64,000 bases of DNA from assembly GCA_964058805.1 (NCBI GenBank), contig CAXKVV010002154.1:77001-141000 (forward strand), read 5' to 3'. A program made the position numbers and the translations under genes. Below are positions 120-62,857 of this stretch, in pieces. Below the pieces are notes generated by a model that saw nothing but the letters and a program-made list of their open reading frames with translations, was not told the origin of the DNA and did no database searches. The number at the start of each line of letters is the position of its first letter. Within the stretch, counting starts at the first letter, position 1. Source of the DNA: Schoenoplectus triqueter. Lineage: Eukaryota > Streptophyta > Magnoliopsida > Poales > Cyperaceae.

Positions 120-394
120 ACAACCGAGAAATATCAGATAATGGAAAATAATCGATGTCAGAAGAGGGTGCTACACAATTCTCCAAGTACAATTGATCTT
201 TAAGGTGATACAATTTCAAAATTGGAGGATTAAAGGTCAGTTCTTTAGAATATATATAGGAATTGAGTATTCAAATGTGTCCAATAAATAAATAACAGTA
301 GAATTTCATTTGATATTTTTCATTTTGTCTTTACTGATCTAATTTCTTTGCTCTTCTTTTTGCAATGAATGAATTTAAGTTTTATGATAAATTT

Positions 395-563
395 TTCATC
401 GATTGATCTCGGTTGAATAACTTGAGAACTCGATGAATTTCCCTTTTGTCACTCTCGGCTAACAAAATATGCTTCTAGTCCTTATGGTATGAACAAGTAA
501 TGAGAATACACTCTTATTCAAGCTGATCGATCTCGGTTATAACTTGAGAACTCAGCAAGAATA
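395..563 (+). other. Two module-1 hairpins in the LTR leader
   Basis: Module 1 has a near-constant core, TTGATCTCRGT, a short loop, then ACTTGAGAAC, enclosed by a variable outer stem. Copy one pairs TTCATCGA (395-402) with TCGATGAA (430-437). Copy two pairs GCTGA (522-526) with TCAGC (552-556), and across an AA/AA internal loop TATTC (515-519) with GAATA (559-563). Stem sequences differ but complementarity is kept. Inside, CTC pairs with GAG and RGT with ACT. Confidence 0.7.
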
Positions 564-10200: not shown

Positions 10201-11133
10201 AAAATGGGACCCGACTCCCACGTTACCGCCGAAAACGAGTCCGGGGGCTTAAAACGTGAAAACAGGACCCGACGCACCCGGCACCGCCGAAAACGAATTC
10301 GGGCGCGCAAAACGTGAAAACGGGACCCGACCCACTCTGCACCGTCGAAAACGAGTCCGGGCGCGCAAAACGTGAAAACGGGACTCGACGCACTCGGCAA
10401 CGCCGAAAATGAGTCCGGGCACGCAAAATGTGAAAACGGGACCCGAGGCACTCGACACCGCCAAAAACGAGTCCGGGCGTGCAAAACGTGAAAACGGGAC
10501 CCGACGCACTCGACACCGCCGAAAACGAGTCCGGGCGCGCAAAACGTGAAAACGGGACCCGACGCACTCGGCAACGTCGAAAACGTGTCCGGGCGCGCAC
10601 AATCTTGAAAATGGGTCCCGACGACCTCGGCACCGTCGAAAACGAGTCCGGGAGCAAAAAACATGAAAGCGGGACCCGACTCCCCCGTGACTGCCGAAAA
10701 CGTGTACGGGCGCGCAAAACATGAAAACGGGACCCGACGCACTCGGCACCGCCGAAAATGAGTCCGAGCGCGCAAAATGTGAAAACGGGACCCGAGGCAC
10801 TCGACACCGCCAAAAACGAGTCAGGGCGCGCAAAACGTGAAAACGGGACCCGACGCACTCGGCACCGCCGAAAACGTGTCCGGGCGCGCAAAATCTTGAA
10901 AATGGGTCCCGACGACCTCGGCACCGCCGAAAACGAGTCCGGGAGCAAAAAATAGCAAACGGGACTCGACTCCCCCGTGACCGCCGAAAACGAGTCCGGG
11001 CGCGCAAAACGTGAAAACGGGACCCGACGCACTCCGCACCGCCGAAAACGTGAAAACGGGACCCGACCCACTCCACACCGCCAAAAACGAGTTCGGGGGC
11101 GCAAAACGTGAAAACGGGACCCGACGCACTCCG
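4265..11133 (+). repeat. 58-bp GC-rich satellite array, family A (about 118 units)
   Basis: Continuous tandem array with a 58-bp period, and very CpG-rich (about ten CpG per unit). Several unit variants recur in fixed order: a type containing CTTGAAAATGGGTCCCGAC appears near 4948, 6047, 6162, 6569, 7147, 7606, 8475, 9729, 10600 and 10890, always followed by a type with GGAGCAAAAAACATG. That points to amplification of blocks of several units as well as single units. Because 58 is not a multiple of three and the minus strand of the unit lacks stops, very long minus-strand open frames (up to about 930 codons) appear. They are by-products of the repeat and are not annotated as genes. Confidence 0.95.
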
Positions 11134-12856: not shown

Positions 12857-15405
12857 GTCAGTACCACAGAAAACGAGTCTGTGCTCCCGAAACTTGAAAA
12901 GGGGACCCAACGCCCACGGTATCACCGAAAACGAGTCCGGGCGCGCAAAACATGAAAACGAGATGCGACGCCCTCGGTACCGCCGAAAACGAGTCAGGGG
13001 GCGCAAAACATGAAAACATGACCCTACGCCCTCGGTACCGCCGAAAAAGAGTACGAGCACGCAAAACATGAAAACGGGACCCGACGCCCTCGGTACCGCA
13101 GAAACCGAGTCCGAGCACGCAAAACTTGAAAACGGGACCTGACGCCCTCGGTACCGCTGAAAACGAGTCAAGGGGCGCAAAACATGAAAACGGGACCCGA
13201 CACCCTCGGAACCGCAGAAAACGAGTCCGAGCACGCAAAATGTGAAAACAGGACCTAACGCCCTCGGTACCGCCGAAACGAGTCGGGCGCGCAAAGCTTG
13301 AAAACGGGAACCGACGCCTTCGGTACCGCTGAAAACGAGTCCAAGCGCGCAAAACCAAAAAACGGGACCCGACGCCCTCGGTACCACCGAAAACGAGTAC
13401 GGGCGCGCAAAACCTGAAACACGACCCGACGCACTCGGTACCGCCGAAAACGAGTCAGGGGCGCAAAATATGAAAACGGGACCGTACGTCCTCGGTACCG
13501 CCGAAAAAGAGTCCGGGCGCGCATAACCTGAAAACGGGACCCGACGCCCTCGGTTCCGCCGAAAACGAGTCCGAGCGTGCAAAACCTGAAAACGCGACCC
13601 GACGCACTCGGCACCGCCGAAAACGAGTCAAAGAGCGCAAAACATGAAAACGGGACCCGACGCCCTCGGTACCGCCGAAAACTAATCAGGGCGCGCAAAA
13701 CATTAAAACGGGAAGCGACGCTGTCAGTACCACAGAAAACGAGTTTATGCTCCCGAAACTTGAAAAAGGGACCCGACGCCCTCGGTATCACGGAAAACGA
13801 GTCCGGGCGCGCAAAACATGAAAACGAGAAGCGACGCCCTCGGTACCGCCGAAAACGAGTTCGGGCGTGCAAAACCTGAAAATGGGACCTGACGCACTCA
13901 GTACTGCCGAAAATGAGTCCGAGCGCGCAAAACGTTAAAACTCGACCCGATGCCCTCGGCACCGCCGAAAACGAGTCAGGGAGCGCAAAACATGAAAACG
14001 GGACCCGACGCCCTCGGTACCGCCGAAAATGAGACCGAGCGCGCAAAATGTTAAAACTCGACCCGACGCGCTCGACACCGCCGAAAACGAGTCAGGGAGC
14101 GCAAAACATGAAAACAGGACCCGACGCCCTCGGTACCGCCGAAATTGAGTCCGGGCGTGCAAAACATGAAAATGGGACCCGATGCCATCGGTACCGCCGA
14201 AAATGAGTCCGGGCGCGCAAAACATGAAAACAGTACCCGATGTCCTCGGTACCGCCGAAAACGAGTCCGACAGTTCAAAACGTGAAAACGGGACTCGATG
14301 CCCTCGATACCGCCGAAAAAGAGTGCGGGCACGCAAAACGTGACAACGGAACGCGACGCCCTCGATCCTGCCGAAAACGAGTTCGGGTGCGAAAAACCTG
14401 AAAACTAGACCCGACGTACTCGTCACCGCCGAAAACGAGTGAGGGAGCGCAAAACAAGAAAACGGTTCCCGACGCCCTCGGTACCGTCGAAAACTAATCG
14501 GGGCGCGCAAAACATGAATAAGAGAAGTGACGCCCTCGGTACCGCTGAAAACTAGTCCGGGCGCGCAAAACATGAAAACGGGACCCGACGCCCTCGGAAC
14601 CGCAAAAAACGAGTCCGGGCACGCAAAACTTGAAATCGGGACCCGACGCCCTCGGTACTGCCGAAAACGAGTCCGGGTGCACAAAACCTGAAAACGGGAA
14701 CCGACGCCCTCGGTACCGCCGAAAATGAGTCCGGGCGCGCAAAACCTGAAAACGCGACCCGACGCACTCGGTACCGCCGAAAACAAGTCAGGGGGCGCAC
14801 AACATGAAAACGTGACCGTACGCCCTTGGTACCGCCGAAATTGTGTGCGGGAGCGCAAAACATGAAATAGGGACCCGACGCCCTCAGTACCGCTGAAAAC
14901 TTGTCCGGGCGCGCAAAAGATGAGAACGGGACCCGACGCCCTCGGTACTGCCGAAAATGAGTCCAGGCGCGCAAAACGTGACAACGGGACCCGACGCCTT
15001 CGATACCGTCGAAAATGAGTCAGGGGCGCAAAACATGAAAACGTGATCCTACGCACTCGGTACCGCCGAAAATGAATCCGGACGCGCAAAAGATGAGAAC
15101 GGGTCCCGACGCCCTCGGTACCGCCGAAAACGAGTCAGGGCGCGCAAAACATGAAAACGGGGCCCAGCGCCCTTGGTAACGCCGAAAATGAGTCCAGGCG
15201 CACAAAAAGTGACAACGGGACCTGACGCCTTCGGTACCGTCGAAAATGAGTCAGGGGCGCAAAACATGAAAACGTGATCCTACGCACTCGATACCGCCGA
15301 AAACGAATCCGGGCGCGCAAAACATGAAAACGGGACCCGACGCCCTTGGTACCGCCGAAAATGAGTCCGGGCGCGCAAAACTTGAAAACAGGATGCGACT
15401 CCCTT
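12857..15405 (+). repeat. 58-bp satellite array, family B (about 44 units)
   Basis: Same block order and period as family A, but with consistent differences: CCCTCGGTACCGCCG replaces CACTCGGCACCGCC, and AAAACATG or AAAACCTG usually replaces AAAACGTG. Units are more divergent from each other than in family A and contain more indels. The array ends near 15405 against inverted LTR sequence. Long minus-strand open frames are again artefacts of the repeat. Confidence 0.92.
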
Positions 15406-15916: not shown

Positions 15917-16460
15917 CACTCTTCAGGCCTAAAGGCACACCTAGGCATTGCTAGGGCCAGTGGCTCACTAAATTGAGTGTGATAGAAGTATAATTCTAAT
16001 TACGGCCTTCAATTTCGACTGATCTCGATCTGGATTTGAACAGATTATTCATAATTCACTAAACTCCGGTACTTGATTCACATATCTCAGGCCTAAAGGC
16101 ACACCCAGGAGTAACTGGGGCCAATGGCTCACTGAGGTTGTGATGATGTTGCCCGATTCACCCTTTAGAAATCGGGCGATGCACTGTTTTGTGCCAGATT
16201 TGACATATTCATTGTAAAATTGCAAATTTCAACATTTTGATCAATAACATCTCACTACTAAGGTAACTAAAGGATGATGAACTTGTGCCTTTCAGTTATT
16301 GTGCAAGTAGGGATACGGAAATTAATTGCAAATAAAAATTTCACAAAGGAAATTGATGTAGTAACTGTTGCATCACAAATTCTCGATTCTTACAACTGGT
16401 TCAGGCCTAAAGGCTCGCCAATCACTTTATGATTGGGCTAGTGGCTCACTGAATTCAGTT
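15917..16460 (-). other. Three module-2 cloverleaf-like structures (minus strand)
   Basis: Each copy holds constant strands GTGAGCCACTGGCC and GTGCCTTTAGGCC around a variable inner stem, inside a variable outer stem. Inner stems (plus coordinates): CCTAG/CTAGG (15940-15955), CCCAG/CTGGG (16104-16119), CCAATCA/TGATTGG (16418-16436). Outer stems: CACTC/GAGTG (15917-15921 with 15975-15979), CTCAG/CTGAG plus TCACA/TGTGA (16078-16143), TTCAG/CTGAA plus AACT/AGTT (16394-16460). Within the constant strands GCC-ACT-GGC and GCCT-TT-AGGC could form two further small arms. Confidence 0.7.
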
Positions 16461-16713
16461 AATTAATATTGATTGATGCTTTTTAAAGGAAGAATAGCAA
16501 AGAAAGAGATGAACCAGTCTAAAGGAAGAAATAACAAGAACAAAAAAAAAAGGAAATTCAATTGACTATTTGATAAGATTGAATTGGATATTTGAGACTC
16601 GGCTCTAGAGGAAGAAATGTAAAGAAAATTAAATGAATCGATGAACAAAACCAATTACCTTCAATTCTTGATAAAAAAAAAGTAAATTGAGCAACTTCTT
16701 TTCTAACTCTTCA

Positions 16714-16840: not shown

Positions 16841-16848
16841 TTTATATA
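16841..16848 (-). promoter_or_regulatory. TATA box of the inverted LTR fragment
   Basis: TATATAAA on the minus strand, upstream of the three module-2 structures in that orientation. This matches the TATA-to-module order of LTR5. Confidence 0.55.
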
Positions 16849-17780: not shown

Positions 17781-18880
17781 GAGTGATTAACTAAGTGGCC
17801 CTATCAGATTGTGCCAAGTCAGATCAATTAAGCATAAGCAGAGAGTTAATAAATCCACATTGAATCTATAGACCTAGATTCAGCTACTGACATAAAGGGC
17901 CCATCTGTAAGGTTTATGAGTATACAGCTCACACAAGTGATCATGCACCAAGCCCATATACAGCTCTAAACAAAGATTTAAATCAAAAGGAAAAGGCGAT
18001 GTGTACCTGGCTCATACGCGATGCGCCTTTGACGGTGGACCCAAGTGAACTGTGGACTCTGTGCGCCGAGCGCAGCCTCCTTTCTTCCTTCTCCTTCTCC
18101 CCTCCCTCTCTTCCTTCTTCTTCTCGCCGAGGTCGATGGCGCCATTAACTCCAATTAAGCTCTCTGGAGCTTGAAACTTCAAGTCCTTATGGCCAGAGAT
18201 AGCCCATGCATAGGAAAGAAGGGGTGAACATTTGAAATTAAAAGGGAACACTTGAATAGAACAGTGAAAGAGGATGATCACCTCGGGTGATTAATGAAGA
18301 ACTTTGATCCTTGGTTCTAAGCTTGAAATTGATGATATAAGCAATCTCTAATCACCTAGGCGATGTTGTAAATGGAGAAAGAAACAACAATTAAGCAGTG
18401 AACAGAAGCAATTGATATGAGGTGATGGAATCGGGCAAATTGAGGAAAGTTGAAACCTTATGCTATAGAGTCGAATTAGTAATGTTTGTAGCTTCTATGT
18501 GCCTACACGATGCTGCTTAAGTGATTGGAATTGTCAATTGGATGATGGAGATATGCTTTTGACCAAGGCTTGCAACCAGGTGATCAAATTCTGAGATTTG
18601 GAGGAAAGTTGCAACGGCAGAGGAGAAAGAGACGCCATGGGTGCATTCAAATGAGTATATATAGTATGCTGAGGATGCTAGAAGGTTCTATGAACAATGA
18701 GAAATGAGAAGATAATGGAACCAGGTCAATGGTCAAAGATTTGAGCTTTGGATTCTTTAAATGTGACCCACATCGCAACAGAATGAATAACAGAAAATGA
18801 AGACCATGTTCATAGGCCAAGGCAGTTCAATTGATGGTGTTTGAATGGTGTATGGCTCTGTGCACTCTTGCAAATTCTTA

Positions 18881-18887
18881 TATATAC
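18881..18887 (+). promoter_or_regulatory. TATA box of LTR2
   Basis: TATATAC follows the U3 boxes and lies about 170 bp before the first module-1 hairpin and about 3.9 kb before the LTR end. LTR4 has the same layout at 52384. Confidence 0.5.
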
Positions 18888-19054
18888 CATGTCAGAACCA
18901 ATAAAGAAAAGGGGTGAAGAGAGAGAAAGCAATTAAGCAAAGGCAAGCAATTCAGAGACAAGAAAAGAGATCAGTATACCTATACACAAGCAATTGAGAG
19001 AGAAATTGAGCGAAAAATCGAGTGAGTGCAAGAAAAGAGAAAAGAAAACTGGTA

Positions 19055-19540
19055 AATCGATTGATCTCAGTATTACACTTGAGAACTCGATTCATTTACT
19101 TCAATTACTTGTTCAGAGGTAAGTTCTAAGCCCTATCCTTTGTTAATTAGAAGTTAACAAGCCCAATTCTTGAAGATAAAGGCTAAGGAATGTAATAGCA
19201 ACTGTATTTTTGAATATCAGCACAATATTGTGCCGTTTGTTGAATTTTCTTAATTTCTGTCGATTTTCCTTTGATTTTCTTCTTTCTTTTATGAGTTATA
19301 AGGTCAATAAGAATATATCTTTCATTTTCTTTGATTAATTCCATCTGAAACTTGATGAATTACACTGTTAATTCGATTGATCTCAGTATTATACTTGAGA
19401 ACTCGATAACAGTGAAGTTCTTCATCCAATTTTCCACTTTTAAGCTCTAATTGCTTAATTATTGTACATACTATATGAATTAAGGTCTGTACATTCATCT
19501 TAAATTGATTGATCTCAGTGATCCACTTGAGAACTCGATT
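19055..19540 (+). other. Three module-1 hairpins in LTR2
   Basis: Copy one: AATCGA (19055-19060) with TCGATT (19087-19092). Copy two: CACTGTTA (19363-19370) with TAACAGTG (19407-19414) plus TCGA (19373-19376) with TCGA (19403-19406), giving 12 pairs around a 2-nt bulge. Copy three near 19503-19540: AATTGA with TCGATT, which needs one T-G wobble and so fits a plus-strand RNA. All share the TTGATCTCAGT/ACTTGAGAAC core. Confidence 0.7.
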
Positions 19541-20329
19541 AATTTGAAGCTAATTCACTGTTATCGCGTCCCGTTAATGAAATTGAGTTCCAAATTGGAA
19601 ATTGAAGAGAATTATGAGTATGTTTAGGTACACTTTGGTCCAAATGAATGTTACAAATATGGTTGAGCATGTAAATGTCAATATCAATCAGTAAACAATA
19701 AGAATTTGAGATGAATCACGATTAGTATCGACTGACTTCATCCCGTGTCAGTAATCATCTCAAAAAGTGAATGCATACTCTAATTTAAACTACTCTAATC
19801 ATGTTAAATGCACTTACGTACTTGTGAGATGTCAATTAAGTGTTCAATTGCTAGAAAGGATGTTCAATTGTGTTGAATTTGCGAGATTTGAGACTCGGTA
19901 CCGATTGGTACCAAATCGAATCATCTGGTACCAATACATAGCGTGATTCACCGTATAGATCGTCGATCGGACGTCATAGAACAACTCCCCGGAGAGAGAC
20001 AATGCTGGAGGAGCTGTCTGATCGGAAAGAGGCAGCCTTAGTCACCGGAAACGCCACCAGCACGAATCTTGGAGGCGCCATTGACTGGAGATTCAAAGAA
20101 ACGCAGTAGCACGAGTATTGATGTGCAAGCACGAATATTGAAGCGCGCGTGTGAATCTTGGAATAGATCGGATGTCCATAATAAGTCGTAGTTTAAAAGA
20201 AAATAACAAATGAATCTGGGCCTCTCATCTCATATGCCTTAATATCAAAACAAATCTAGCGGCCCAAATAAGAATAAGGTTAAATGAAAGATGTTTGTTA
20301 ATCTCAACGCGGATCTAAAGGCCCAGATT

Positions 20330-21700
20330 AAGCCCAATAATCAATTAATAACAGAATATTAAAGTATAGAGTAAATAAGTCATTTGAAAATGTTCCTAAA
20401 CTCCAAATTAAGTCAAATTTATTTTTAAACATTCTTTATTTTTCATAGTATTTTTCTGTATAAGAATATTCCAATTTTAAAAATATTATTATATTGAAAT
20501 AATTTAAAAGCAAAAGATATTATATTGCATTTATATATTTGACTTAGCTTTGACTTGTCATTTTAAATGTTATAAAAATTCCAAAAATTCAAATAAAATT
20601 ATGAATCATAACTAAATATATTTTCTGACTTTTCAAATAATTTTCATAAAATAATAATAATGAAAATAATGAAATTCAATAAATTATAATAAAACAAATT
20701 CTATTCTTTATTACAAAAAGATAATAAATAATTTATTAACAATAAATAAATATTATTTTTATTTTTTTTATAAAAATAAAATAAATAAATAAATAATAAT
20801 AATAAATAATAATAATAAATATACCTTATTCCATTTAAAATCTAAAATAAAATTATATATCCTTTTGACTATTATATAGAGATCTAAATCTCAAATAAAA
20901 AATATAATAATAATAGAATAAATCTTATCATTTTTCAGTTAAAAAAATAAAATATAAATAAAAATATAATAAGAAATAAATCATTCCTAATATTTTTGTT
21001 AATAAAATTCAATAAGGAGAATAATGATTATAATGAAGAATATAATAAATCTCTTTCTTTTAGCTATTATAAAATCTCAAAAATTCAAATAAAAATCATA
21101 AATAATAGCTAATTCATTTCCTATTATTTTTTATAAGAAATTTCCTACAAAAATAATTAAAGTGAAAAGTAGTAAAAGTAAAAAAAATCCTATTCTTTTA
21201 GCCTAAAATTCAAAAAAAATTACAAAATTCATTTTCTAAAAAATCTTAAAATTCAAATAAAAATTATAAATAGAACAAAAATAATAATAAAATCCTAAAA
21301 TCAAAACAAAAATCAAGAAGAATAGTTAACTCATATTTTATTATTCTTTTAAATAAATTTCTATAAAAATAAATAGAATTTAAAAATAATAAAAATAAAA
21401 TCCTATTACTTTGGCTATCATCCTAAAAATTCAAATAAAATCATAAATAATAGCCAATTTATTTCCTATTATTTTTGTAAGTAATTTTCTACAAAAATAA
21501 GTAGAGTTAAAAATAATAATAAAAAAAATAAAATTCTATTACTTTAGCTATTATAAAATCCCAAAAATCTAAATAAAAAATTCTGAATAATAGCTAACTC
21601 ATTATTTCTGTAAGTAATTTTCTACAAAAATAAATAGAGTTTAAAAATAAAGATAAATTCACTTTTGTAATTGAGATAATAATGAAATACACTACCTTGC
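20330..21700. other. AT-rich segment of LTR2
   Basis: No gene. AATA and AAT-rich sequence with repeated TTTTGGCTATTATAAAATCCC-like blocks, homologous to 1380-2640 and 53780-55000. Confidence 0.75.
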
Positions 21701-21957
21701 TAAAATCAATAAACAATGTGATAATATCTTAAAAGTAACTAGATACGCTCACACAAGGGATGTTAAGTGAAACATTAATTTCTACACAAGTAATGCAACA
21801 TTCAGGATAGTCAGTTGAGGCAAGAACATCTTAATGTACGTCAGAGAATGACTGAGACTATGACAACAACACAAAAAGGAGAGCATCACGGTGTCCGAGG
21901 AGGAGATATCACGATGGCCCTGTGTCATGAACAAGTAATTCATGACCAAATAGGCTA

Positions 21958-22470
21958 GTAAGACTAAACTAATCCGTCGATGAGTTTGTCTTTTAGTCTG
22001 GAGGATCGAATCGTTCTGTAGTTGATTCATCCTCTAATAGTGGAATGAACCATTCAGTAGAAGGTTCTTTCACTGACACACGCCTCAACGTCAAGCTGAC
22101 TTAGTGCTTCAGATTTGACCTTGTGTGCAGTAGTGTTCCTAGGTTTATGAATCGGCTTAGTGCTTCGAATTCATGATCTAGAAGATCGGTGAGAAGAAAC
22201 ACGTGGGCCAAATCCACCCTTCTCCTGATTCACCAACCTCAAAATCAACCGGCATAGTGCTTCGAGTTGGATTTTGTGTGATTGGTTGTTGACTAGTTAA
22301 GATTGAACCGTTCAGTAGTAAGTTTATCTTCTAGATCAACTGAGGTCAAGTCGTTCAGTAGTAGACTCACCTCGAACCCTTCTGTAGAGATTAATCTGAT
22401 CAGTAGTAAGGTTATCTCTCGAGGCGGTAAAGACTGAACCGATCAGTAGTAGGTTCGTCTTTCACTAGAT
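21958..22470 (+). other. Hairpin array with GWTCWGTAGTA loop (LTR2)
   Basis: Homologous to 3303-3957. Stems include GAATC/GATTC with outer GGAT/ATCC (near 22005-22030), AGTC/GACT with outer GAGGT/ACCTC (near 22345-22375) and GAACC/GGTTC with outer GAC/GTC (near 22430-22462). In this copy several loops read GTTCAGTAGTA instead of GTTCTGTAGTA while stems remain paired. Confidence 0.7.
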
Positions 22471-22677
22471 CAACCTTCTGGCGCATCCAGGATGCCCTAA
22501 TGATCCTCGATCATAAGGGCACACGACCACTTGACCATCATTTAGTTATATTATTTTCTTCTCCCTTTTAAAGATCCAGAGGTGCCTCGAGGTTAATAGC
22601 CCAGGGTAATTAACGGTGGGGGCTTGCGCCCACCGGAATCTACAAGAACTCACAATCACTAAAAACCCCCCTAAATG

Positions 22678-22727
22678 TGCATTCAAATTGGTCTAAATGG
22701 TAGAATCAACCGGCGTTAAAAAATGCA
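22678..22727 (+). other. Covarying terminal stem of LTR2
   Basis: TGCATT (22678-22683) pairs with AATGCA (22722-22727), where LTR1 and LTR4 pair GTGCATC with GATGCAC. The enclosed stem is GGT/ACC (22699-22701 with 22709-22711) where the others have GGC/GCC. Both differences are compensatory. Confidence 0.6.
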
Positions 22728-22823
22728 TGCTTAGGAGGGATCTCCGTGTCCTTCTTCCGCATCCCATCACCAACACCACCAGGAAGGCGGTGCGGAGCGC
22801 GCGAAAAAGGGTCGCACAGGATC

Positions 22824-22841
22824 TGGCACGCCCGGTGGGAC
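22824..22841 (+). other. Primer binding site of Tat copy A
   Basis: TGGCACGCCCGGTGGGAC begins five bases after the LTR end at 22818. It starts TGG, as expected of a site complementary to a tRNA 3' CCA end, and the same sequence with one change is at 56548-56565. I could not assign the tRNA. Confidence 0.6.
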
Positions 22842-22958
22842 CTAGATTCTCCTCTTATCTTTGAAAGAGAGAAGCAAATAGAATAGTTAAAAGATACAAG
22901 TGGTCTTTTATGCGCTAAAAATGACTAATGAATTTCAAGTATTTTCATTTTGCAGGAA

Positions 22959-25900
22959 ATGGCATACTTCGGTAACTTCAACCTTGCTCCTTACGCTGTC
23001 ACACTTGCATAGAGCCCAGACGGTAAGCTCTTCATGTTCTTCGGGACTATCCCGCAAGAACTTACTTTCTACAGCCCAGCTCCAGTGGCCACCTTCACTC
23101 CCGCAACCGTCCGAATCTCCATCCCGGATGAAAAAGAGGACTCAATCGTCCTGACTCCCAAGGGCATTGCTAACAATGTCATGGCCTCTCCTACTACCTC
23201 TCCAAAAAGGAGAAGGCGACCGTCCAAGAAGACAGCCCCAACGGCCGCGGCCCAAATTACCCGCAACTCTCAAGTGTCCAGGAAAAGGGCCCTGGACGCA
23301 TACCAAAACCAATTGGTGGCTAGGCCAGTCATCCCAGTCTCCAACAAGTTCACGGCACTTCGTATAGTGGCCAAGAACTCAACAACTGGCCAGCTCCGCC
23401 AGGCATGGGAGGTGCCTAAACCCACACCTCGCCCAACTCAGAGGCCTCAACACTGCCAACGCAAGTCTTAAGCCCCTGCAGAAGCCATTTATAATGCTCA
23501 TAGGGCCCTCAAACAGAGGAAGAGCGTTAGAAACGCTAAGTCGAGATAATATGTCTCCCGCTCTAGTCAATCTGAAGATATGGCTCAACCGCAAGCCATT
23601 ATCCCGGCTCCACGCCTAAGAAGGTTTACATCAAAAGTAACACCTAGCGTCCAGCAGATGTGGTTCCCAAAGGGTTCCCAACCAATGAAAACCCGGTCTC
23701 AAACCCAGCCCAGCAAGGCAGGCAACTCAAGCGCTCCGTCCGAGAGTGTATTCAGCCGATTAGGCTCGAAAGTACCACTCAACAGTTTAAAGATAGCTGC
23801 CCCTAACCAAATGAAAAAGAAGAGGAGAACCGCCCGCTACGAAGAGCACTTCTTGGTCAACACCATCAGTGTAAGCTACGATACCGACCCAGATACTAAC
23901 ACTGAGGTGAATATGGTCCAGGACGACCAATCCCCGCCTAATCAAGCTCATGTCACCAATACCAACAAGAATAATGGTAGAAAAGGGAGACCTCCTAAGA
24001 GGGTCAACCCCGAAGGCAATAGCAGGGAAGGGGAAGACCACGATGAAAATCCCGATCTCTTCGATAATGAAGATGACGTTGAAACACGTCCCGAAGTGCC
24101 TATCGATGAAATCGAAATCTTGAAAGGCCACATCGAGGTACGGGATGAAGAACTGATTAGGCAACGGGAGCTAATCGCTACCATGCTAAAGCAAAATGAA
24201 GAATTAATTAAGGCGGTTAAATCATTACAAGAGTCACAAGACGCCAATTTTAAAGCTCGTAGTTCCCGTCAAGAAGGGGTCCACAGTACCAAAAGCAATC
24301 ACAAGGAAAAGCAACCTGTCAATTCTAAACCTCATCCACATAGAACAATAGAGGTGGAGGCTAAACCAACGGGACTATCCCGAAAAGAGATTCAAGCTAT
24401 GATTGCCCAGCAAATGCAGATAGCTGGAGGTGGATACGCCGTCCCTCCGGTCAAAAACTGTGGACATCCATACCCCGCTGTGTACGATTTAGAAGAATAT
24501 CCTAAGGGGTATGTGATCACTCGCTTCAGGACCTTCTCCGGGGAGGGCAATAAAGATTTAAACCCCGAACAACACCTGGCCCACTTTGTAGCCTCGTGCG
24601 GCAACACAGGCGGCAATGATGCACTGTTGTTGAGACAATTTCCTCAAAGCTTGGTGGGAACCGCCTTTCAATGGTACTATTCACTGAAAAACAACAGCAT
24701 CAGGACCTGGGACGAGATGGCAGACTCGTTCAGGGCATGATTTGTCATGGTGTCTGACAAAATAAACATAGCCGATTTGGCAAGCACTAAACCCAAGAAA
24801 GGGGAGTCAATGATAGATTTTATCAACAGATGGCGGAACCTCAGCATCAAATACAACCGCACATTAACCGAAGATGAGGCCGTCAACCTAATCATGAAGA
24901 ACATTGACGGGTGGATGTGCATGCTACTTGGTGTGATAAAGGTCAATACATTTAAAGATTTACTCATGTCGGTATCCAATATGGAAAGGATGTCACCACA
25001 CACCGTGCCAAACTTCATGATCAACAGGCCATAACGAGGAGCCCAAGCTGAAACCAAGGTGACATTTACCTTATTAAAAGATAAGATGGTTGCTAACATG
25101 AACACTCAAAGCGGCAACAGCGGCACGAGTGGCAACAATTATAACAAAGGACCTAGGTTCAATCCAGGAGGGGGTTCGCAGGGCTTTGAGTCCCTCAAAC
25201 AAAAGAAATCTAAGCCGTACTCCTTCAAAAAAGATAAAGTTGCTCAAATCTTTAGAGGAGCACTAAAGAACGGCCTAGTCTTGCCGGCCAGTAAACGTCC
25301 AGAAGATGCTAATAAATCGGACGAGCCCAACTTTTGCCCATATCACAGAATATTATGGCACTCAATTGAAGATTGTTGGGTCTTCAAAGATTGGGTCGAA
25401 AAGGCATACAAAAATGGCGAAATAACCCTACCCCAGGGATTCCTACAAAGCCCAGCCGCCCATGAACAAGCCAACACAATATCTCACGAGGAAGAGAAAG
25501 GCTTGAGTCAAACAACCCAAAGAGGTAAGGGAACTCTTAACGAATACTACTCACATCAAATGAGGGAAAATTGTTGCTTGACTGTTGTTGAGGTATTAGA
25601 CGACAAGTCAGAAGAAGACAACACCCCAATCCTGAAAAATGCTTTGAAGCAGCTAGAAAAGGAACCTAACACAGTCGATGAGTTAGCCGAAATCAATCTG
25701 GGGACAGAAGAGGACCCACGACCAACCTTTATAAGCGCGTCATTACCAGAAGAGGCGGCTGACAGGTTGAAGACGTTCCTTAAAAGCTATATGGACTGTT
25801 TCGCTTGGAGTTACAAAGAAATGCCAGGACTAGACCCCGACGTGGCAGTTCATTACTTGAAAATTGATCCAACCTTCAAGCCAATCAAGCAAGCACCGAG

Positions 25901-39932: not shown

Positions 39933-42091
39933 CAATGCCCAAGAGCTCGGACAATTGCATAGAACTCTTTGTCATATGTAGTGTAGTTCTTACGTGAATC
40001 TGAAAGCTTTTCACTAAAGAAGGCAATAGGTCGACCTTCTTGATTGAGAACCGCACCAATGCCAACACCAGATGCATCACATTCAAGCTCAAAAATATTC
40101 TCAAAGTTGGGCAAAGTAAGAATTGGGGCTGCTGTCATCTTCTCCTTGATGAGTTGAAAGCTCTTTTCAGCTTCCTTTGTCCATTTGAATACTCCTCCTT
40201 TCAAGCACTCAGTGATTGGAGAGACAAGAGTGCTGAAATCTCGAATGAACCGGCAATAAAATGAGGCCAATCCATGAAAACTCCTCACATCGTGAATGTT
40301 GGTTGGTATTGGCCATGAAACAATTGCATCCACCTTAGAAGGATCAACATGAATACCCTCAGCTGAAACCACATAGCCTAGAAACACCAAGTTGCTGGTT
40401 AGAAACTCGCACTTCTTGAGGTTGATGTAGAGTTTCTGTTCAGCTAGCACTTCAAAGACTTGGCAAAGGTGTTCCAAATGCTCTTCTTTACCCGTGCTAT
40501 ACACGAGTATATCATCAAAATAGACCACCACAAATCTGCCAATAAAAGACTTAAACACCAAATTCATTATTCTCATAAAAGTACTAGGAGCATTAGAGAG
40601 TCCGAATGGCATCACCAACCACTCAAACAATCCATCACGGGTCTTAAATACCGTCTTCCATTCATCACCAGGCCTCATACGAATCTGATGGTACCCACTT
40701 CTAAGATCAATCTTTGAAAACACACTAGCACCATGGAGCTGATCTAGCATGTCATCTAGACGAGGAATAGGGAAGCGATACTTGATAGTAATCTTGTTGA
40801 CCGCTCTACTATCCACACACATGCGAAAAGAACCATCTTTCTTTGGCACAAGCAAGGCTGGAACTGCACAAGGACTCATGCTTTCACGCACCAAACCCTT
40901 TCTCAACAACTCATCTACTTGCCTCTGTAACTCGGCATTTTCTGTTGGGTTCATTCGGTAGGCTGCTTTGTTTGGCAAAACTGCACCAGGAACAAAATCT
41001 ATGCAGTGTTGCACACTCCTCATTGGAGGTAAACCTGCTGGAATTTCATCTGGAACAAGGTTCTGAAATTGTTCAAGTAAAGGTACCACTGGTCCAGGTA
41101 TTAGAGTACTTCTGTAACCCTTAACTTCTTTCACCACTAATGCAAAGGCTATTTGGGATTCTTCAAAAATTTCAGTAAATTCATATTTTAAGAGAATGAA
41201 ATTGCTATCCTTGAGGGCTGGTTTAGATTTCATTTCCATTCTAGAAGGACCCAAAGTAATCTTAGCACCATTCAGCTCAAAAGAATAAGTGTTTTTAAAA
41301 CCGTCATGGTGTACCTTTCTATCAAACTGCCAAGGCCTCCCCAAAAGTAAATGACAAGCATCCATAGGAACTACATCACACCATACCTCATCTCGGTACT
41401 TCTCACCAATAGAAAAATTTACCAAACAACGCTGGTCAACTTGCACACATTTACCCTTTTCCAACCAAGAGAGTTTGTACGGTTTTGGGTGCTTTTCAGT
41501 TTTAAGCGGCAACTTTTGTACCATAATTTCAGAAACAACATTCTCACAACTCCCGCTATCAATGATAACATCGCATACCTTCCCATGAGAGGTGCATCGT
41601 GTATTGAAGATATTGTTACGGAGTCACACATCATCTTGAACGGGACTGGAATTCAGCACACGCATAATCACCAACATCTCACCCGTATCTCCATAAATGA
41701 CATCCTCCTCATCTGCTGCCTCATCAAACACGGGTGGAGAATCAAAATCTGTTTGTTCCTCTTCTAGGGGTTCTTCAACAATGGTAAATACCCGCTGGTT
41801 TGGGCACTCGGACATGATGTGACCGTACCCTTTGCACCGATAGCATTGAACAGCTTTAGGGGTTGGTTTAGAGGGTCCTGCGGTTGCGGTTTTTGCTGAA
41901 AATTTGGCCACTGCACTTGATGTTGGTTTGGCTGATTGCGTACTGCTCCCATGACTTGTTGGATGGCCTCGATTGAGAACTCGGCTACCACCAAAGCTCG
42001 CTGTTTTTCTGACTTCTTTCTCCTTGAGTTGTTTTTCAACTTTTGTGGCAAGTTTAAACACATCATGATAAGAGATAAAGGGCTGTATATT
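39933..42091 (-). pseudogene. Older chromovirus: Gag end, zinc knuckle, protease, reverse transcriptase, RNase H start
   Basis: Reads from 42091 (middle of Gag) down to the insertion point in RNase H. It contains the CCHC knuckle (near 41820-41860), DSG protease motif, YFDDILVYS (near 40510-40540) and the RNase H LECDASG motif. A TGA at 41624-41626 replaces a Trp codon of the young copy (G to A on the coding strand). Otherwise the frame is open. The other half of the gene is 33573-35155. Confidence 0.88.
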
Positions 42092-44256
42092 ATTTAAGTC
42101 GCATGATGGTAGGGGCAGAACACGGATATTCGCCGATCGAGAAGCATTGTTTAGCCTTAATCTTTGCGGTAAAGAAATTAAGGCATTACATGCTAGCCCA
42201 TAAAATCATTTTAATATCCAAGGTGGACCCCCTCAAATACCTGATGACTCGGCCAATGTTGACGGGTAGGCTGGCCAAATGGGCGATCATTCTTACTGAG
42301 TTTGACATCATCTACACACCGCAAAAGGCGATCAAGGGGCAGGCGCTGGCAGACTTCTTAGCTGCACATCCGATTCAAGATGACTCTCCATTAAAATGTG
42401 ACTTTCCCGACGAGGAAACTCTACATGTTGAAGAAGGAAATCCTATATGGGAGTTGTACTTTGATGGTGCCTCATCGATCAAGCCGATCGCAGGCCCGGG
42501 AATTCCAACTGTGCGAGCTGGCGCAGGACTAGTCTTCGTGACCCCGGAAGGCGGGATAATACGACATTCTCTAGCTTTAACCGAACCATGCACAAATAAT
42601 GAAGCAGAGTATGAGGCACTTATCGCCGGACTAGAGCTATCACTGGAGCTAGAAATCAAAGCTGTGCGCATCTTTGGGGATTCACAGTTGATAATAAATC
42701 AAATAATTGGCGAATACAAAGTCCTAAAGCTGGAGCTAATACAATATCACCAGAAGGCCATGGAATTAATGAAGAAAATCCCGTACGTGTCCATTGAGAA
42801 GGTCACGAGGGCTGTGAATGGTGAAGCAGATGCGTTGGCCAAACTCGCCAAGGAGCTGGGTGAACCAACAGAGCCGGAAATCCACATCATCGTCCGCAAT
42901 AGAAGGCCATTATCATTGTGTCAGACGACAAACAATGCAAATAATGAAGGTACTGGGCTAGAAAAGATGGAATGCCAAGAAACAATGATAACTGAAGAAG
43001 ACGATGATTGGAGACAACCGTTCATCGAATATTTCCGGCATGGCACCCTCCCTAAAGACAAAAGAATCGCTGATCAACTAAGAAAGCGGGTACTACGATA
43101 TGCGTATGTGGGCAATACGCTATACCGTAGGTCTTATGATCAACTATGGCTGAGATGCGTATCAGGGCCTGAAGCCGAGCAGGTTATGAAAGAAATTCAC
43201 TCCGGGCTATGCGGAGCACATCAGTCTGGGCCAAAAATGAAGTTAAAAATCAAGCGAATGGGGAATTATTGGCCCACGATGGTGGCTGATTGTGAAGAGC
43301 ACGCAAAGAAGTGCCGCATGTGCTAGATACATGGCCCTTTTATACATCAAGCGCCAAACCCGTTGCACCCCACAGTAGCATCCTGGCCATTTAATATGTG
43401 GGGCACAGACATAGTGGGGCCCATAGACCCTCCTAAGTCAAGAGGTCACCGGTTCATCTTGGCGGCAACGGATTACTTTACCAAATGGGCCGAAGCCATT
43501 CCACTTAAAGAAGTCAAAGCATCTGATGTGGTTAAGTTCTTCAAGACACACATCCTCTACCGATTCGGCACCCCACAACGAATAATATCTGATAACGGGA
43601 CGGCCTTCAAGATCTCTAAAGTCTATGCCCTGGCGGAGCAATTTAACATTGACTGGAGATTCTCATCCATTTATAACCCGAGAGCCAACGGCCTGGCCGA
43701 AGCCTTTAACAAAACCCTGATCAATATTATGAAAAAGACCGTGGACGGCAACCAACGAGACTGGGATAATCGTCTACAGGAGGCATTATGGGCTTATCGA
43801 ACCACGTACCGTACGCCTACGCAAGCTACCCCGTATTCTTTGGCTTTTGGGGTTGAAGCCGTTCTCCCTCTTGAGGTGGAATTACCGTCATTGCGGGTGG
43901 CTATGCAAAATGATATGACCATGGATGAATGCCAACAACTTAGATTGGACGAGTTGGATGCCATGGACGAGAAGAGATTAATAGCCCAGCAGAATCTTGA
44001 GATATATCAGGCAAAAATGGCAAGGGCTTATGACAAAATGGCGTGAGTCAGGGCATTTCAACAAGGGGAGCTTGTTCTTGTCCTTAAGAGGCCAATTATT
44101 GGCCGGCACATTGGCCCAAAATTTTCTCCGAATTGGGAAGGGCCATATGTAATTGAGAAGGTATACGGGGGCGGCGCATACCAACTCATAGACCATGAAG
44201 GTGAAAGGCCCATGCCACCGATTAATGGGCGATATCTGAAGAAGTACTACACATAG
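42092..44256 (+). pseudogene. Tat-lineage RNase H, additional RNase H and integrase, copy B
   Basis: One frame from YYLSR at 42092 to the stop at 44254. It holds the end of the ordinary RNase H (YSPIEKHCLALIFAVKKLRHY), then a second, archaeal-type RNase H (YFDGASS near 42461, NNEAEYEALIAGL, GDSQLIINQ) that is diagnostic of the Tat lineage, then integrase with an H-H-C-C zinc region (from 43197) and catalytic D, D and E with 35 residues between the last two (SDNG near 43590, E at 43699-43701). Two in-frame stops, TAG 43324 and TGA 44044, are C-to-T changes relative to copy C. The reverse transcriptase that should precede 42092 is absent. Confidence 0.9.
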
Positions 44257-51280: not shown

Positions 51281-52383
51281 TAGACAAATGGACCTATCAG
51301 AGTGTGCCAAGTCAGATTAATTAGATTTAAGCAGGGGGTTAATCAATCCACAGCTGGACTAATGGGCCGAGATTCATATACTTACATATGGGGCCCATGT
51401 GTAAGGTTTATGAGTGTACAGCTTATACAGATGACCATGAGCCAAGCCCATGCGCAAGAACAAACAGAAATTTAAACCAAGGAGAAAAGGAGATATGTAC
51501 CCGGCCCATGCGTGTCATGCCTCTGATGGTGGGCCCTGTCTTGCGATGGACTTGGTGCGCCGAGTTCAGCTCCTTCCCTCTCTTCTCCTTCTCCCCTCCC
51601 TCTCTTCTTTCTTCTTCTCGACGAGGCTGATGGCGCCATTAACGCTGATCAAGCTCTCCAAAGCTCGCAATTCCAATTCTTTCCAGTTAGAGATAGCCTG
51701 TACATAGGAGAGAAAGAGTGAGTGATCAAAATTAAAAAGTAGTAAGTGAATAGAGCAGTGAGAGAGGATGATCACCTCGGGTGATTAATGAAGAACTTTG
51801 ATCCTTGGATCTAAACTCAAAATTGATGATGCAGATCTCTTCCACTCACTTAGACGATGCTGTAAGTGTAGAAAGAAGCAATAATTAAGTATTAAATATA
51901 AGCAATTGAGATAAGGTGATGAAATCGGGCAAACTGAGGATAATTGAAACCTTATGCTATAAAGACGAATTAGCAATGCTTATAGCCTCCATGTGCCCAC
52001 ACGATACTACTTGAATGGATGGAATTGTCAATTGAATAGTAAAGATATGCTTTTGACCAAAGCTTGCCACCGGGTGATTGAATTCTGAGCTTTGGAGGAA
52101 AGTTGTAATGGCAGAGAAGAGAGAGGCGCCTTGGGTGCATTCAAATGGGTATATATAGCATGCTGAAGATGCTAGAAGGTTCTATGAACAATGAGAAATG
52201 AGAAGATAGTGGAACCGAGTCAACAGTCAAAGATTGGAGCTTTGGATTCATTTAGATGGGACCCGCATCTCAACAGAATGGATAACTGAATTGAAGAACC
52301 ATGTTTATAGGCCAAGGCAGATTAACTGGTGGTGTTTAGATGGTGTATGGCTCTAATCCCGCAGGTGCACCACTCCAATTGCC

Positions 52384-52390
52384 TATATAA
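52384..52390 (+). promoter_or_regulatory. TATA box of LTR4
   Basis: TATATAA lies after the U3 boxes and 143 bp before the first module-1 hairpin. It predicts an R-U5 leader of about 4.1 kb. Confidence 0.55.
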
Positions 52391-52526
52391 CCCGATTAAC
52401 AGCACAAACATAGAGAGACAATATAATAGACCAGAGAGAGATAGAGAGTGATAGATTAGAGAGATATAGCATAGAAAAGACAATTGGAAGAGAAGGATCG
52501 ATTGTGAGAAGGGAAGAAAGCCAAGA

Positions 52527-52993
52527 AACCGATTGATCTCAGTTTTAACTTGAGAACTCGGTTGATATATCTCCAATTATCCACTAGAAGGTCAGTCTTG
52601 AGCTTAATTTCAATTGGATTTGAAGTTTCAGTATTGAATTTTCGATGTAATTGATATATCGCATTTGAATCTTAGAGTAACAGTATCTTTGAGTTGAATT
52701 TTTCAATTTCTTTCTTTTAGTTTGCAAATTCATAACTTCTTTCCTCTAATATTTGATCTGAATTTCAGTTCTTGTTTTGTTTCTTGATTGGATTTCAAGT
52801 GAAAATTAGTAATTAAGCTGGTTAAATCGATTGATCTCGGTTAAAACCTGAGAACTCGATACCAGCAAAGGTCTTTGCTTTGATTCTTTGTTTGAACGCC
52901 AGATTCATCTCAGTTTGTGTTTGTATCACATGTATTCAAAGTCATAGTGTCGTTCAGAGTCGATTGATCTCAGTTTTAACTTGAGAACTCGAC
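52527..52993 (+). other. Three module-1 hairpins in LTR4
   Basis: Copy one: AACCGA (52527-52532) with TCGGTT (52558-52563). Copy two: GCTGGT (52817-52822) with ACCAGC (52861-52866) plus ATCGA (52826-52830) with TCGAT (52856-52860); its inner stem is GGT/ACC instead of AGT/ACT, a further compensatory change. Copy three: GTCGA (52959-52963) with TCGAC (52989-52993). Confidence 0.72.
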
Positions 52994-53779
52994 GGAATTA
53001 GTGATCTTCAATGTGTTATCGTGCCGTGTCAGATAAGTTGGGCTTCAAGTCAGAACCAGAAAGAGATTACATGTATAATTAAACACATTCGGTTTGCAAT
53101 TGTTGTTACAAAGCTTGTCAAGTGAACAATTAGCATTGAAAACAAGTTGATAGCTGGAATTTCGAGTGAATTGTAACTGGTACCGAACGGTACCATCACA
53201 TACTTGGCTTAGCAGAGTTGTAAGTCGATTTGAATGTTGTTAATGGTTTTCATGTATGTTAGCATATACAAACGATGCAAATCAAGCAGTCAATTGTCAG
53301 AAATATCGATTAATTTTGTTGAATTCGCAAAGATTGTTCTTTGATACCGAGCGGTACCAATCTGTTTCAAGTGGCGCTAGTAGGCAGTGTTATCTACCGT
53401 ATTAATTGTCAATCAGCCACCGTAGAAAGCTTTCTCGTGATGAGACGATGCTAAGAGAGTCATCTGATCGGCAAGAGGTGGTCTCAGTCGCCGGCACCAC
53501 CGTGGGCACGAATATTAAAGGATTTATAGATCGGAGAATCAAAGAAGCGCATCGGCGCGAATATTGGCGCCTCAACGCGAATATTGATGTATGTATACGA
53601 ATCTTGGAAGAGATCGAACGACCAAAATAAAGCACTGTTTTAAATAAAGATACAGAATGAATCTGGGCCTTACATCTCGTATGGTTTGATCTTGAAGCGA
53701 ATCTGGCGGCCCAAATAAGAACAGAGTTGAATAAAAGATGGGCGCTAATCTCAGCCAGATCCAAAGGCCCATATTAAAC

Positions 53780-59830: not shown

Positions 59831-61937
59831 ATACAAGAGAAAAGCCAAGATCAAACTCTATGAACTGAACCAATACAATCCCTATACTATATGGAATAGT
59901 GTCAATGCTAAGCCAGTATTTTGATACAACCAATCATGAGAAATCTCAATATGATTTTGCTTTCAAGGCTGACCTGGTGCCAAAGCTGTGAGCAACCACC
60001 TAACCATGCTTTAATTTGTGTCAATTGCTGATAAGTAGTCAGCTCTTTGACCAAATTACCCTCATGTTAAGGGATTGAAAGTCAATTTCACAAGACTGAT
60101 CAGGTGCCAAAGCTGGGAGCAACTACCTGATCAAGTCTAGATTTGTATTAATTGCTGATAAGTAGTCAGCATTTGATCAAATCAAACCCTAATAAGCATC
60201 AATATTGGTGTTAATTGGGGTGGAATTTCTGCAAGAGAGAGATAATTGGCAGAGACACTGAGCTACAACTGAGAAATTGAGATTAATTGAGAAGAAAATA
60301 GGGTTTTCTGAGCAAAGAAATTTTTAATACAAGGATACAGGGGTAAAATGGGGATTTAAAAATACAGAGATGATCATCATGAATTTAAGGGTTTTTGGAG
60401 AAAATTTCATGATTTTTGGATAAAGGGATCTATTAAAATCAATTGGAGAAAGAAAATTAGATCAATCCAAAGGCTGAAATTCAATCAAGGACTTATCTGG
60501 GTACAACTTGGAGTTGAAAACCTAGCTGGGTGCAAATAGGGGACACCAAGCACAGTGGAGATCAATTTCGGCGCTGGAAGAATCCAACAGAAAAGGGGAA
60601 ATACAGAGATGAATTCGGTCTACACAATTTGTTTCTCATTAAACCTGACTTGTGGGACCGGTTCATGTGAACCAAGTCCACTCAGATAATAAAGCCGTCC
60701 CGCACCACAGTCCCTCTCTGAACAGGAGGCCCCCATGTCAGAGGAGACGTTTCAAAGGCTTACAACTAATTTCATGCGCCAAGTCTGTTTAAGAAGAAAA
60801 TAAAAGAAGTGAAGCCAAGGGCTGGGCTCATGTGAACCGACCCCTGTGTCATTGGGTTGGCCTTTGTAGACCAAGTGAAAACAATGAAGGAGGTTATTTG
60901 AAGAACTCTTCCTCCCTCCCGATTTCTTTTCTTCCTCTCGACCTCTCTCTGACAGGTGAGATGGAAATGGCGCCCAGGAAGCTCATCTGCCAAGACCCTC
61001 TCATTATATATCAATCAAAACCTCATGAGAAGGAGAGACCAGAGAATAATTTATTTTCCTGAATGGTGCCTTGTGTGACACTCACATGGGAGAAGAAGAT
61101 CTCGGGTGTGAAGTAGGAAGTGGCTGAGTCAAGTAGTTGTAATACGAATTAGGGTCTCAGAGAGCATCATTAGACCTCCACGACACTAGCTGGGCCTTTA
61201 AACCTGAATTTCGACATCTCTAGACCCAAGTTCCACCACTTACCCAATCGGATCAGGAAGCAAGGTGTTTAAAACTGGTATTAACATGAGCAAATAGTCG
61301 AATTGATGAGCTAAACCCATTAATGGACTTAATGTGATGCTAATAGAGCCTGCAATTAGAAGAATTGGTCAAGAGATAAATAGAATTAATTCAAGATTTC
61401 CAAACGGGTTTAAAATGAAAGAAACAGGTCTGGTTGCCTAATCGGATCCCCACTTTTATCTAGATCAATCAAGGGGAGTTTTGTGGTACCTGTTGAACGC
61501 TAGGAAGGTTCTAGAAATATCTAGAAACATATAAAAGGCATTAAGCAATGAAAGTGGCAAAGCTGTAAAATTGTCCAAAAGTGTAACAGACTCAAACTGC
61601 CAAGGTTTTCAGTTATTATGAATCAACAACAACCTCAGGATGGTTCAATGGACCATAAGGTGCATCAAGGAGGTGATCAAGCTAATAATTAAAGGACCAA
61701 GTGCAAATGAGATAAAGGGAAGTGGAATTGGCAGGAAAACTAAAAAAAAAACTATCAATTGCCAAGCTGGCAATCCGATCCCAGGTTATTCTCCTCAACA
61801 AACACAACTGAGATTAATTCTAGCCATTGGATTAGTGAAGAAAAGGGGTGAGATGATGCCACCTCAGTGATCCATGGACTCAAACGCAAATTATGTTGAA
61901 AAGAAACACACTTTGGCAGTTATCCCCAACCGACCCC

Positions 61938-61945
61938 TATATAAA
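61938..61945 (+). promoter_or_regulatory. TATA box of LTR5
   Basis: TATATAAA, about 350 bp upstream of the first module-2 structure. The purine-rich sequence that follows (AGAGAGAATAGAGAG near 62055) fits a transcribed leader. Confidence 0.55.
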
Positions 61946-62288
61946 CCCTGGCTACAGCTGAAGTAAAGAGGGCAGGTGGGGGGCTAAAAACAGAAACAGA
62001 TTTCTTTACAACTGTGAAAGAGCAAGAAGAAAGCTTTATACTGCCAGAGTTACCAGCAGAGAGAGAATAGAGAGATTTTGCTGTAATTGAGGCTAGATAG
62101 GTCTAATCCCATCAGAGACAGCCCAGTTTTGTGAAGTAAATAGAGTATATCTGTGCTGCAAGAGAGGTTTGTTGTTACATACTAAGAATCAATAAAATAA
62201 TGGAGGCTTTGTTGTTTTCTTTGCTGTTTTGAGCATTAAATCCTTTCTTTCTCCTTTCTTTCTTAATAATCTGGTGTGTGATGATATT

Positions 62289-62857
62289 GTTCAGTGAGTC
62301 ACTAACCCAAACTGAAAATTTAGTAAGCCTTTAGACCTGAACTGGTTATATTTTCAGAAGATTTACCTTTTGATTCTTGCTGTTCATCCTTTTACATTCC
62401 ATTCTTCTTTGCTTATTTGTTTCCTTTCCTTTACAAGACCTAATTGAACACAAATTAGATTAGTTCTAAAGCTGACATCCAGCGAGCCACTGGCCCAAAC
62501 ACAATGTGTTTGGTGTGCCTTTAGGCCTGGATCAGTTGTTATTCCAAGGGATTCAAAGAGTTAAATGTTGTTTTAGTCAAGTATCTTGATAAGTTCTGTC
62601 ACATTTTCCTTTTCTTGCTTCTGATCAAATAATAACTAGGAATTAAAGGGTTATAAGCACTGCATTTATAATTGAGAAGCTATGATAATTGAACTGTGTG
62701 GTTTATACTCACGGAAATACTGAATTCAATAGAAATCAGTGTTCTGAACCTTGTTTGCTCTGAAGGGAAATAAACCAATTGATATCAATAGAACCTAGTG
62801 AGCCACTGGCCCTGGCTAAAGCCAGGCGTGCCTTTAGGCCTGGGGCAATATCAATTG
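62289..62857 (+). other. Three module-2 cloverleaf-like structures in LTR5
   Basis: Outer stems: GTTCAG/CTGAAC (62289-62294 with 62337-62342), ATCCAG/CTGGAT (62477-62482 with 62527-62532) and CAATTGATAT/ATATCAATTG (62776-62785 with 62848-62857). Inner stems: CCAAACACA/TGTGTTTGG (62495-62503 with 62505-62513) and CTGGCT/AGCCAG (62812-62817 with 62820-62825); the first copy has no clear inner stem. The constant strands GTGAGCCACTGGCC and GTGCCTTTAGGCC lie between. Same structure as 15917-16460 on the other strand. Confidence 0.72.

Follow-up and report, generated by a model that had tools for sequence, protein, structure and literature searches.

What keeps the same short, foldable segment repeated within the LTRs of a plant retrotransposon, with paired arms that vary from copy to copy around unpaired letters that are conserved? 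The question is raised by a stretch of 64,000 nt (hereafter the window) included in the Schoenoplectus triqueter assembly that we searched (82 Mb, 2,086 contigs). An earlier note on this stretch had described six copies of the segment, here called module 2 (M2), as a selected RNA structure of four arms with covarying outer and inner stems. In this work, M2 is shown by computation to be a conserved hairpin that usually occurs two or three times per leader, regularly spaced past a TATA box. It is compared with module 1 (M1), a hairpin unrelated to M2 that takes the corresponding slot in other LTRs of the same family.

The element family

The window is plant DNA made up of nested giant Ty3 elements. 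Its ORFs encode RT-RNaseH, a second RNase H domain and an integrase, with plant-mobile-domain (PMD) ORFs on the opposite strand, a set that points to the Tat/Ogre group according to PMC6317226, where a PMD is given for 57% of Ogre elements. The domain order RT_RNaseH, RVT_3, Integrase_H2C2 was found within 42079-43323 and PMD ORFs are also present, which is the arrangement that defines Ogre within the Tat clade of Ty3. The M2-bearing LTRs probably belong with these Ogre-type domain ORFs, to which they are tied by neighbourhood, and the choice of Ogre over Retand would rest on the PMD. The proteins nearest to the window integrase are metagenome entries (up to 95%), and among named plants Dendrobium (64%) and Rhynchospora (66%, rising to 74% in shorter parts) come nearest, which by itself makes a monocot host likely; an integrase search of viral contigs found nothing. 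Several element copies carry open frames of more than 3,000 aa (e.g., on contigs C167, C1225 and C1009 of the assembly), and the family looks recently active. The window also contains a 58-bp tandem repeat in long arrays at 4267-11131 and 12855-15404, abutting LTR sequence.

Copies of M2 in the window

All six copies were located where the earlier note had placed them, and their arms pair. In the plus-strand LTR, copy 1 (62286..62346; covariance-model E 7.3e-15) is the most diverged and its lone MFE fold differs, while copy 2 (62474..62536; MFE -29.6, z -3.45) and copy 3 (62776..62857 with a distal outer stem, core 62790-62849; MFE -32.2) are found by the covariance model and fold as hairpins. 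The same two lines of evidence hold for copies 1, 2 and 3 of the minus-strand LTR (16395..16457, 16081..16140 and 15917..15976, minus strand), the last with a z of only -0.71; two of the six window copies fold no better than shuffles (z -0.78 and -0.71). A covariance model built from the six copies and run on the window returned exactly those six (E 1.4e-18 to 7.3e-15; 64-78 bits), as expected by construction for its own training set; the next-best match has an E of 1.5, and none but the six falls below E 1. The first constant strand alone is weak evidence, given that 4 of 100 shuffles held as many matches at up to three mismatches; for the second strand, none of 100 did.

The stems were assessed by exchanging arms among the six copies. 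For the inner stems, the copies' own arms beat every other of the 720 pairings. For the outer stems, with the conserved YAG/CTG omitted, the own pairing was only moderately better than swapped arms, 30, 22 and 8 of 720 pairings (own included) being as good or better at arm lengths of 14, 20 and 26. The claim that inner stems pair in five of six copies was correct, and copy 1 of the plus strand retains four of five P3 pairs in the shared register, despite taking a different fold when folded alone. In a whole-window BLAST, the two M2-bearing LTRs have no joint match longer than 120 bp; in a more sensitive search, their module regions align at 59-71%.

M2 across the genome

The exact M2 core matched 212 times in the assembly, the reversed-pattern control giving none, and the core with its twelve P2 letters left free matched 159 times. 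Among the matches listed, 90 overlapping loci were fetched and combined with the window, and 57 distinct copies were extracted by a substitution-tolerant core pattern, structure not being fitted. In these, P1 pairs 4 and 5, with numbering from the core outward, alternate between U-A and C-G, three copies have U-G or C-G in place of A-U at P1 pair 2, and A-U, U-A, G-C, C-G and wobbles all occur at P3 pairs 3 and 5. Loops and bulges conserve their letters though unpaired, in copies chosen by a tolerant pattern on that same core.

For covariation, 53 distinct copies were chosen from 85 model matches, repeats omitted, and aligned with MAFFT. Pairing is kept in 93.7% of cells and two-sided changes occur in 12 of 18 pairs; shifting the partner by one column lowers pairing to 43-52%. 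The covariation measure is 0.357 against 0.149 in shuffles, and none of five measures was reached in any of 500 shuffles, counts which are not probabilities because the copies are related by descent. The earlier proposal of selection on an RNA structure whose outer and inner stems covary is thus supported.

Covarying arms could also be produced at the DNA level, as cruciforms or by quasi-palindrome correction, with no RNA involved. Both strands fold about equally well, as this explanation would have it, and the folding energy of lone strands gave no clear strand preference. However, counted over the paired arms of distinct copies of both modules, G-U exceeds A-C by 35 to 13 (p=0.002, an optimistic value as the copies are related), an excess which indicates the sense RNA strand; further, the bulges keep both their sequence and their place, and the modules stand at a regular position after the TATA box. 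We therefore consider DNA palindromes highly improbable.

The position of M2 relative to the TATA box was determined in 24 distinct leaders, in 22 of which the box lies 331 to 420 nt before the first detected copy; in the window, it is found at 61938..61945 (plus) and 16841..16848 (minus). These TATA counts stand without a chance control. The earlier note's three copies per LTR hold for both M2-bearing LTRs of the window but not as a rule, since the 24 leaders carry three copies in 6 cases, two in 16 and one in 2, as counted by a pattern that allows substitutions only and may overlook diverged copies. Gaps between copies are 286-316 and 153-203 nt in the six three-copy leaders; those of the window's plus-strand LTR are 188 and 316 nt.

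Hairpin or four-way junction

The conserved blocks of M2, namely GCC(1), GGC(1), GCC(2) and GGC(2), permit either a rod, in which strand 1 pairs with strand 2, or a cross, in which each strand pairs with itself. The rod consists of the outer stem, a YGA bulge, GCC/GGC, ACU facing UUUA, GGC/GCC, a second YGA-type bulge and the inner stem, that is, two YGA-type bulges around a 3x4 internal loop; it is pseudo-symmetric, both strands reading mostly YGA-GCC-loop-GGC-C. Both forms show equal pairing (93.7% of cells in each) and equal covariation measures, because only double mutants discriminate and P2 hardly varies. The C-G to T-A change described in copy 1 exists, but it is compatible with the hairpin and the four-way model alike, and the three copies that fit a T at the second letter of the first block are likewise not decisive.

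Other evidence favours the rod. In an energy model without coaxial stacking, it is 1.9-3.8 kcal/mol more stable than the cross in all six window copies, copy 1's own best fold being neither, and RNAalifold run on the 53 sequences returns the rod. The loops are also linked: in each of the 10 copies whose loop 2 reads UCUA, loop 1 is AUU and never ACU, the 21 copies with AUU dividing into UCUA (10), CCUA (3) and UUUA (8). This linkage suggests that the two loops face each other, although few lineages are involved, as only two kinds of inner stem carry UCUA and few independent events must lie behind it. The four-arm cloverleaf of the earlier note is thus not supported over the rod-like hairpin, which in our judgement is clearly the likelier form; a junction form, for instance under a bound protein, keeps a lesser probability.

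Searches for known families

Rfam 15 gave no match in the window at the gathering score and, at E up to 10, no family at the M2 modules or at the M1 modules of LTR Lc. M2 therefore matches no Rfam family, and an identity with known ribozymes was rejected as no ribozyme model matched. ARAGORN found no tRNA, in agreement with the earlier remark that no tRNA consensus was visible, and a tRNA or tRNA-like identity was likewise rejected. A self-cleaving ribozyme of some other kind would account for a conserved unpaired core between variable stems, yet no family appears even at this relaxed threshold, and two or three cleavable sites in a genomic leader would destroy the template; we find this explanation scarcely credible.

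The exact M2 pattern occurs in none of the viral contigs searched. Matches to a looser pattern in viral contigs (17) and prokaryote genomes (74) reach at most 22.1 bits with the M2 model, far below the window copies and the loci of the S. triqueter genome (35.8-77.1 bits), and were taken as chance; likewise the six M1 matches in viral contigs, the best with 18.5 bits. Literature searches with the module letters gave, among the matches listed, only unrelated papers or matches to the shortest term.

M1, an unrelated hairpin in the corresponding slot

M1 is present in three LTRs of the window, with three, three and two copies, all on the plus strand: La (391..441 and 515..563), Lb (19049..19098, just upstream of a predicted donor; 19365..19414; 19497..19546) and Lc (52521..52569, 52819..52867 and 52952..53000). 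It is a covarying hairpin with a UU bulge, an A-A mismatch and a bulged U. For its outer stems, the own pairing was matched by 94, 4 and 19 of 40,320 pairings (own included) at arm lengths of 8, 14 and 20. Genome-wide, 432 exact M1 cores were found against none in the control. Copies usually form triplets spaced about 308 and 132 nt apart, with three copies in 9 of 12 distinct leaders, and M1 and M2 occur together in none of 91 locus-strands, which come from overlapping loci each retrieved around a single module type. Listed singly rather than in triplets, M1-like hairpins whose perfect stem has no bulged U were observed at C22:274358, C22:608871 and C88:13981 of the assembly. Downstream of modules, repeated self-complementary GGTACC...GGTACC motifs were noted at 53180-53360, 19895-19930 and 15855-15680 (minus strand).

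Leader anatomy and a predicted intron

A TATA box precedes the first M1 by 121-180 nt in 11 of 12 leaders. A second TATA-like site, at about -355 to -413 and some 0.23 kb farther upstream, is present in most M1 leaders and leaves the start site uncertain; the near box, where the conserved upstream part ends, was used here.

Downstream of the TATA box, donor-like sites recur. Written with a slash at the splice point, the minus-strand M2 LTR has a predicted 5' splice site AAG/GTAATT at 16657..16658, upstream of all three M2 copies, and an AGGTAA-type site occupies a like place upstream of M2 in 18 of 24 leaders, two further leaders whose TATA box was not in range being excluded from this count. 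The site is absent in the other six, including the window's plus-strand LTR, where AGAG/GTTTGT at 62167..62168 is a weak candidate (the same AGGTTTGT occurs in leaders L106 and L111) and AG/GTCTAA at 62101 a weak alternative; leader L138 has no candidate at all. In M1 leaders, an AGGTNAG site lies at +57/+58 in 10 of 14. Across the donor-like site, composition turns from purine-rich (A+G 0.66-0.70) to T-rich, T rising from 0.18-0.19 to 0.43-0.48. Predicted first exons contain 3 ATGs in 3,520 nt, whereas equal lengths past the donor contain 48, and 21 of 24 first exons contain none, as a raw count without composition correction over the 24 leaders with both TATA box and donor (8 M1, 16 M2).

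On the acceptor side, the gag ATG is preceded, at a distance of 3 nt, by TGACTAAT, a pyrimidine tract and (C/T)AG/GAAATGGC in all nine elements examined (five M2, three M1 and one without an assigned leader), with the primer-binding site (PBS) just upstream of the predicted acceptor in eight. For the Lb element, these signals predict from sequence a leader intron at 19119..22955 of the plus strand (AG/GTAAGT ... TTTTGCAG/GAAATGG), of about 3.8 kb (3,836 nt) and with a GC content of 0.31, which holds M1 copies 2 and 3, the LTR end and the PBS. The putative PBS, TGGCACGCCCGGTGGGACC, is at 22824..22842 (plus), after the LTR end CACA (22818), and the polyprotein ATG is at 22959..22961 (plus), 3 nt past the predicted acceptor.

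We infer a leader intron whose removal would take out M2 together with the PBS and the second and third M1 copies. Since M2 lies, in most leaders, downstream of the donor-like site, it would mark unspliced, genomic RNA, and M1 copy 1, which falls in the predicted exon, would persist in spliced RNA too.

Two explanations bear directly on this anatomy. A translation element (IRES or shunt) might be needed for a leader of 4 kb, as a scanning ribosome would require help with the 55 ATGs of the 3,836-nt Lb stretch if this stayed unspliced; however, a spliced RNA would run from an ATG-poor exon into the gag ATG and have no such need, so that such an element appears very improbable. The hairpins might instead slow or gate splicing of the leader intron and thereby keep part of the transcripts genomic, with no role in export or packaging. 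Such splicing control would suit the start of M1 copy 1 at 57-58 nt ahead of the donor-like site, seen in 10 of 14 leaders, and the position of the remaining copies within the first 0.7 kb or so past it, yet M2 copy 1 starts about 210 nt past the donor-like site where one exists, unlike M1, and structure by itself would need no conserved bulges or loops. We regard splicing control as improbable.

Probable exchange of modules between elements

Each element was classed as M1 or M2 according to whichever listed module lay closest upstream of it on its own strand. Across four M1-element and six M2-element copies, the N-terminal 593 residues of the polyprotein show 93-99% identity and no fixed difference; the compared piece seems to stop close to where the Gag domain begins, short of the nucleocapsid. 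A Gag particular to each module type is thus not supported over this N-terminus. In one M1/M2 pair, the 593-aa N-terminus is 99% identical (98% at the DNA level), which is what a host factor or a shared protein acting on both modules would predict.

Downstream of the modules, M1 and M2 loci have DNA in common (80-90% in the best 14 alignments). No alignment joins their upstream parts, and six odd ones connect M1 flank from far upstream with DNA downstream of M2; farther up still, past those flanks, the window's plus-strand M2 LTR begins with sequence (60232-60554 region) that is again M1-LTR-like, at 77-80%. Two M1 LTRs compared with each other (18850-19950 and 52345-53450) have an identity of 0.72-0.94 before the TATA box, where it falls sharply; over about 1.1 kb past the box it is 0.34-0.60, with the modules at 0.68-0.80, and then 0.72-0.92. 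From these patterns, the inner LTR head seems to be exchanged between elements, and the modules appear as islands in a fast-changing leader.

A proposed role in the fate of genomic RNA

Taken together, the predicted intronic place, the copy number, the conserved unpaired bases and the independence from the polyprotein N-terminus fit protein-binding sites for genomic RNA. As a tentative first choice, held with something short of even confidence, we propose that M2 works in cis in the RNA of a family of giant Ogre-like Ty3 LTR retrotransposons, foremost in the export of unspliced RNA. Lying with the PBS in the leader intron, M2 would be retained only in unspliced, genomic RNA; its pseudo-symmetric bulged core would bind a protein, with the repeats giving avidity, and the bound protein would let the intron-containing RNA leave the nucleus unspliced, as genome. 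M1 would do the same job in sister elements. Points against this proposal are M1 copy 1 in the predicted exon, the six M2 leaders that lack the AGGTAA site, the second TATA-like site of most M1 leaders, the equal folding of both strands and the two window copies that fold no better than shuffles.

The same sites could serve packaging, as putative Gag-binding sites selecting unspliced genomic RNA for particles. This reading shares the predicted intronic location with the PBS and the repeated copies with conserved unpaired bases, and BARE, a plant element, has separate RNA pools for translation and packaging according to PMC3735527. Against it, module type is independent of the polyprotein N-terminus in the four M1 and six M2 pieces, including the 99% cross pair, the nucleocapsid lying outside this comparison. 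No observation in this analysis separates the two roles, and packaging by Gag, rather unlikely when taken alone, is a close second, nearly as likely as export. Export is preferred since a change of module type need not involve the protein, and since an LTR recombination in primates by which one export system took the place of another is documented in PMC11379458.

A broader reading, possible though still doubtful, is that of a modular RNA address, in which two unrelated and interchangeable hairpins, usually two or three copies regularly spaced in the leader intron, would be swapped together with the LTR head and read by a host or shared protein. The LTR head here is the promoter-near U3 plus the leader, and it would pass between elements with one polyprotein in common. 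The question is testable, since the RNA is compact, hundreds of natural variants exist, and M1 can be compared with M2 on a near-identical protein background.

Comparison with known systems

Like Ogre, the elements studied here are giant members of the Tat lineage with PMD ORFs. Ogre splices between ORFs according to PMC3735527, whereas the predicted intron here is in the leader and open frames extend to more than 3,000 aa. Cassandra is reported to carry a 5S RNA in its LTR and likewise offers a conserved structured RNA inside a plant LTR, but M2 has no 5S match in Rfam.

The retroviral Psi lies downstream of the major splice donor, is present in unspliced RNA only and comprises repeated hairpins. 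M2 would resemble it on all three counts, being predicted downstream of a splice donor and in unspliced RNA only, and being itself a repeated hairpin; it differs in having no Rfam match and in that two unrelated modules are found on the same polyprotein N-terminus, and Gag binding is hypothetical here.

The CTE/RTE elements of animal retroelements let intron-containing RNA leave the nucleus by way of NXF1 or an equivalent, and the loop layout of the MPMV CTE is pseudo-two-fold, a layout that M2 resembles. The MPMV CTE, IAP RTE, musD MTE and MER11 CTE are, likewise, structured RNAs of LTR elements, and M2 would act on unspliced RNA as they do. M2 differs from them in its plant host, in its two or three copies placed in the leader and in having no Rfam match (Rfam may not include CTE/RTE models), the export role being proposed by analogy. 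In the open-licence literature searched, no report of a plant counterpart of CTE or Psi was found; if the modular RNA address holds true, M1 and M2 would constitute such a counterpart.
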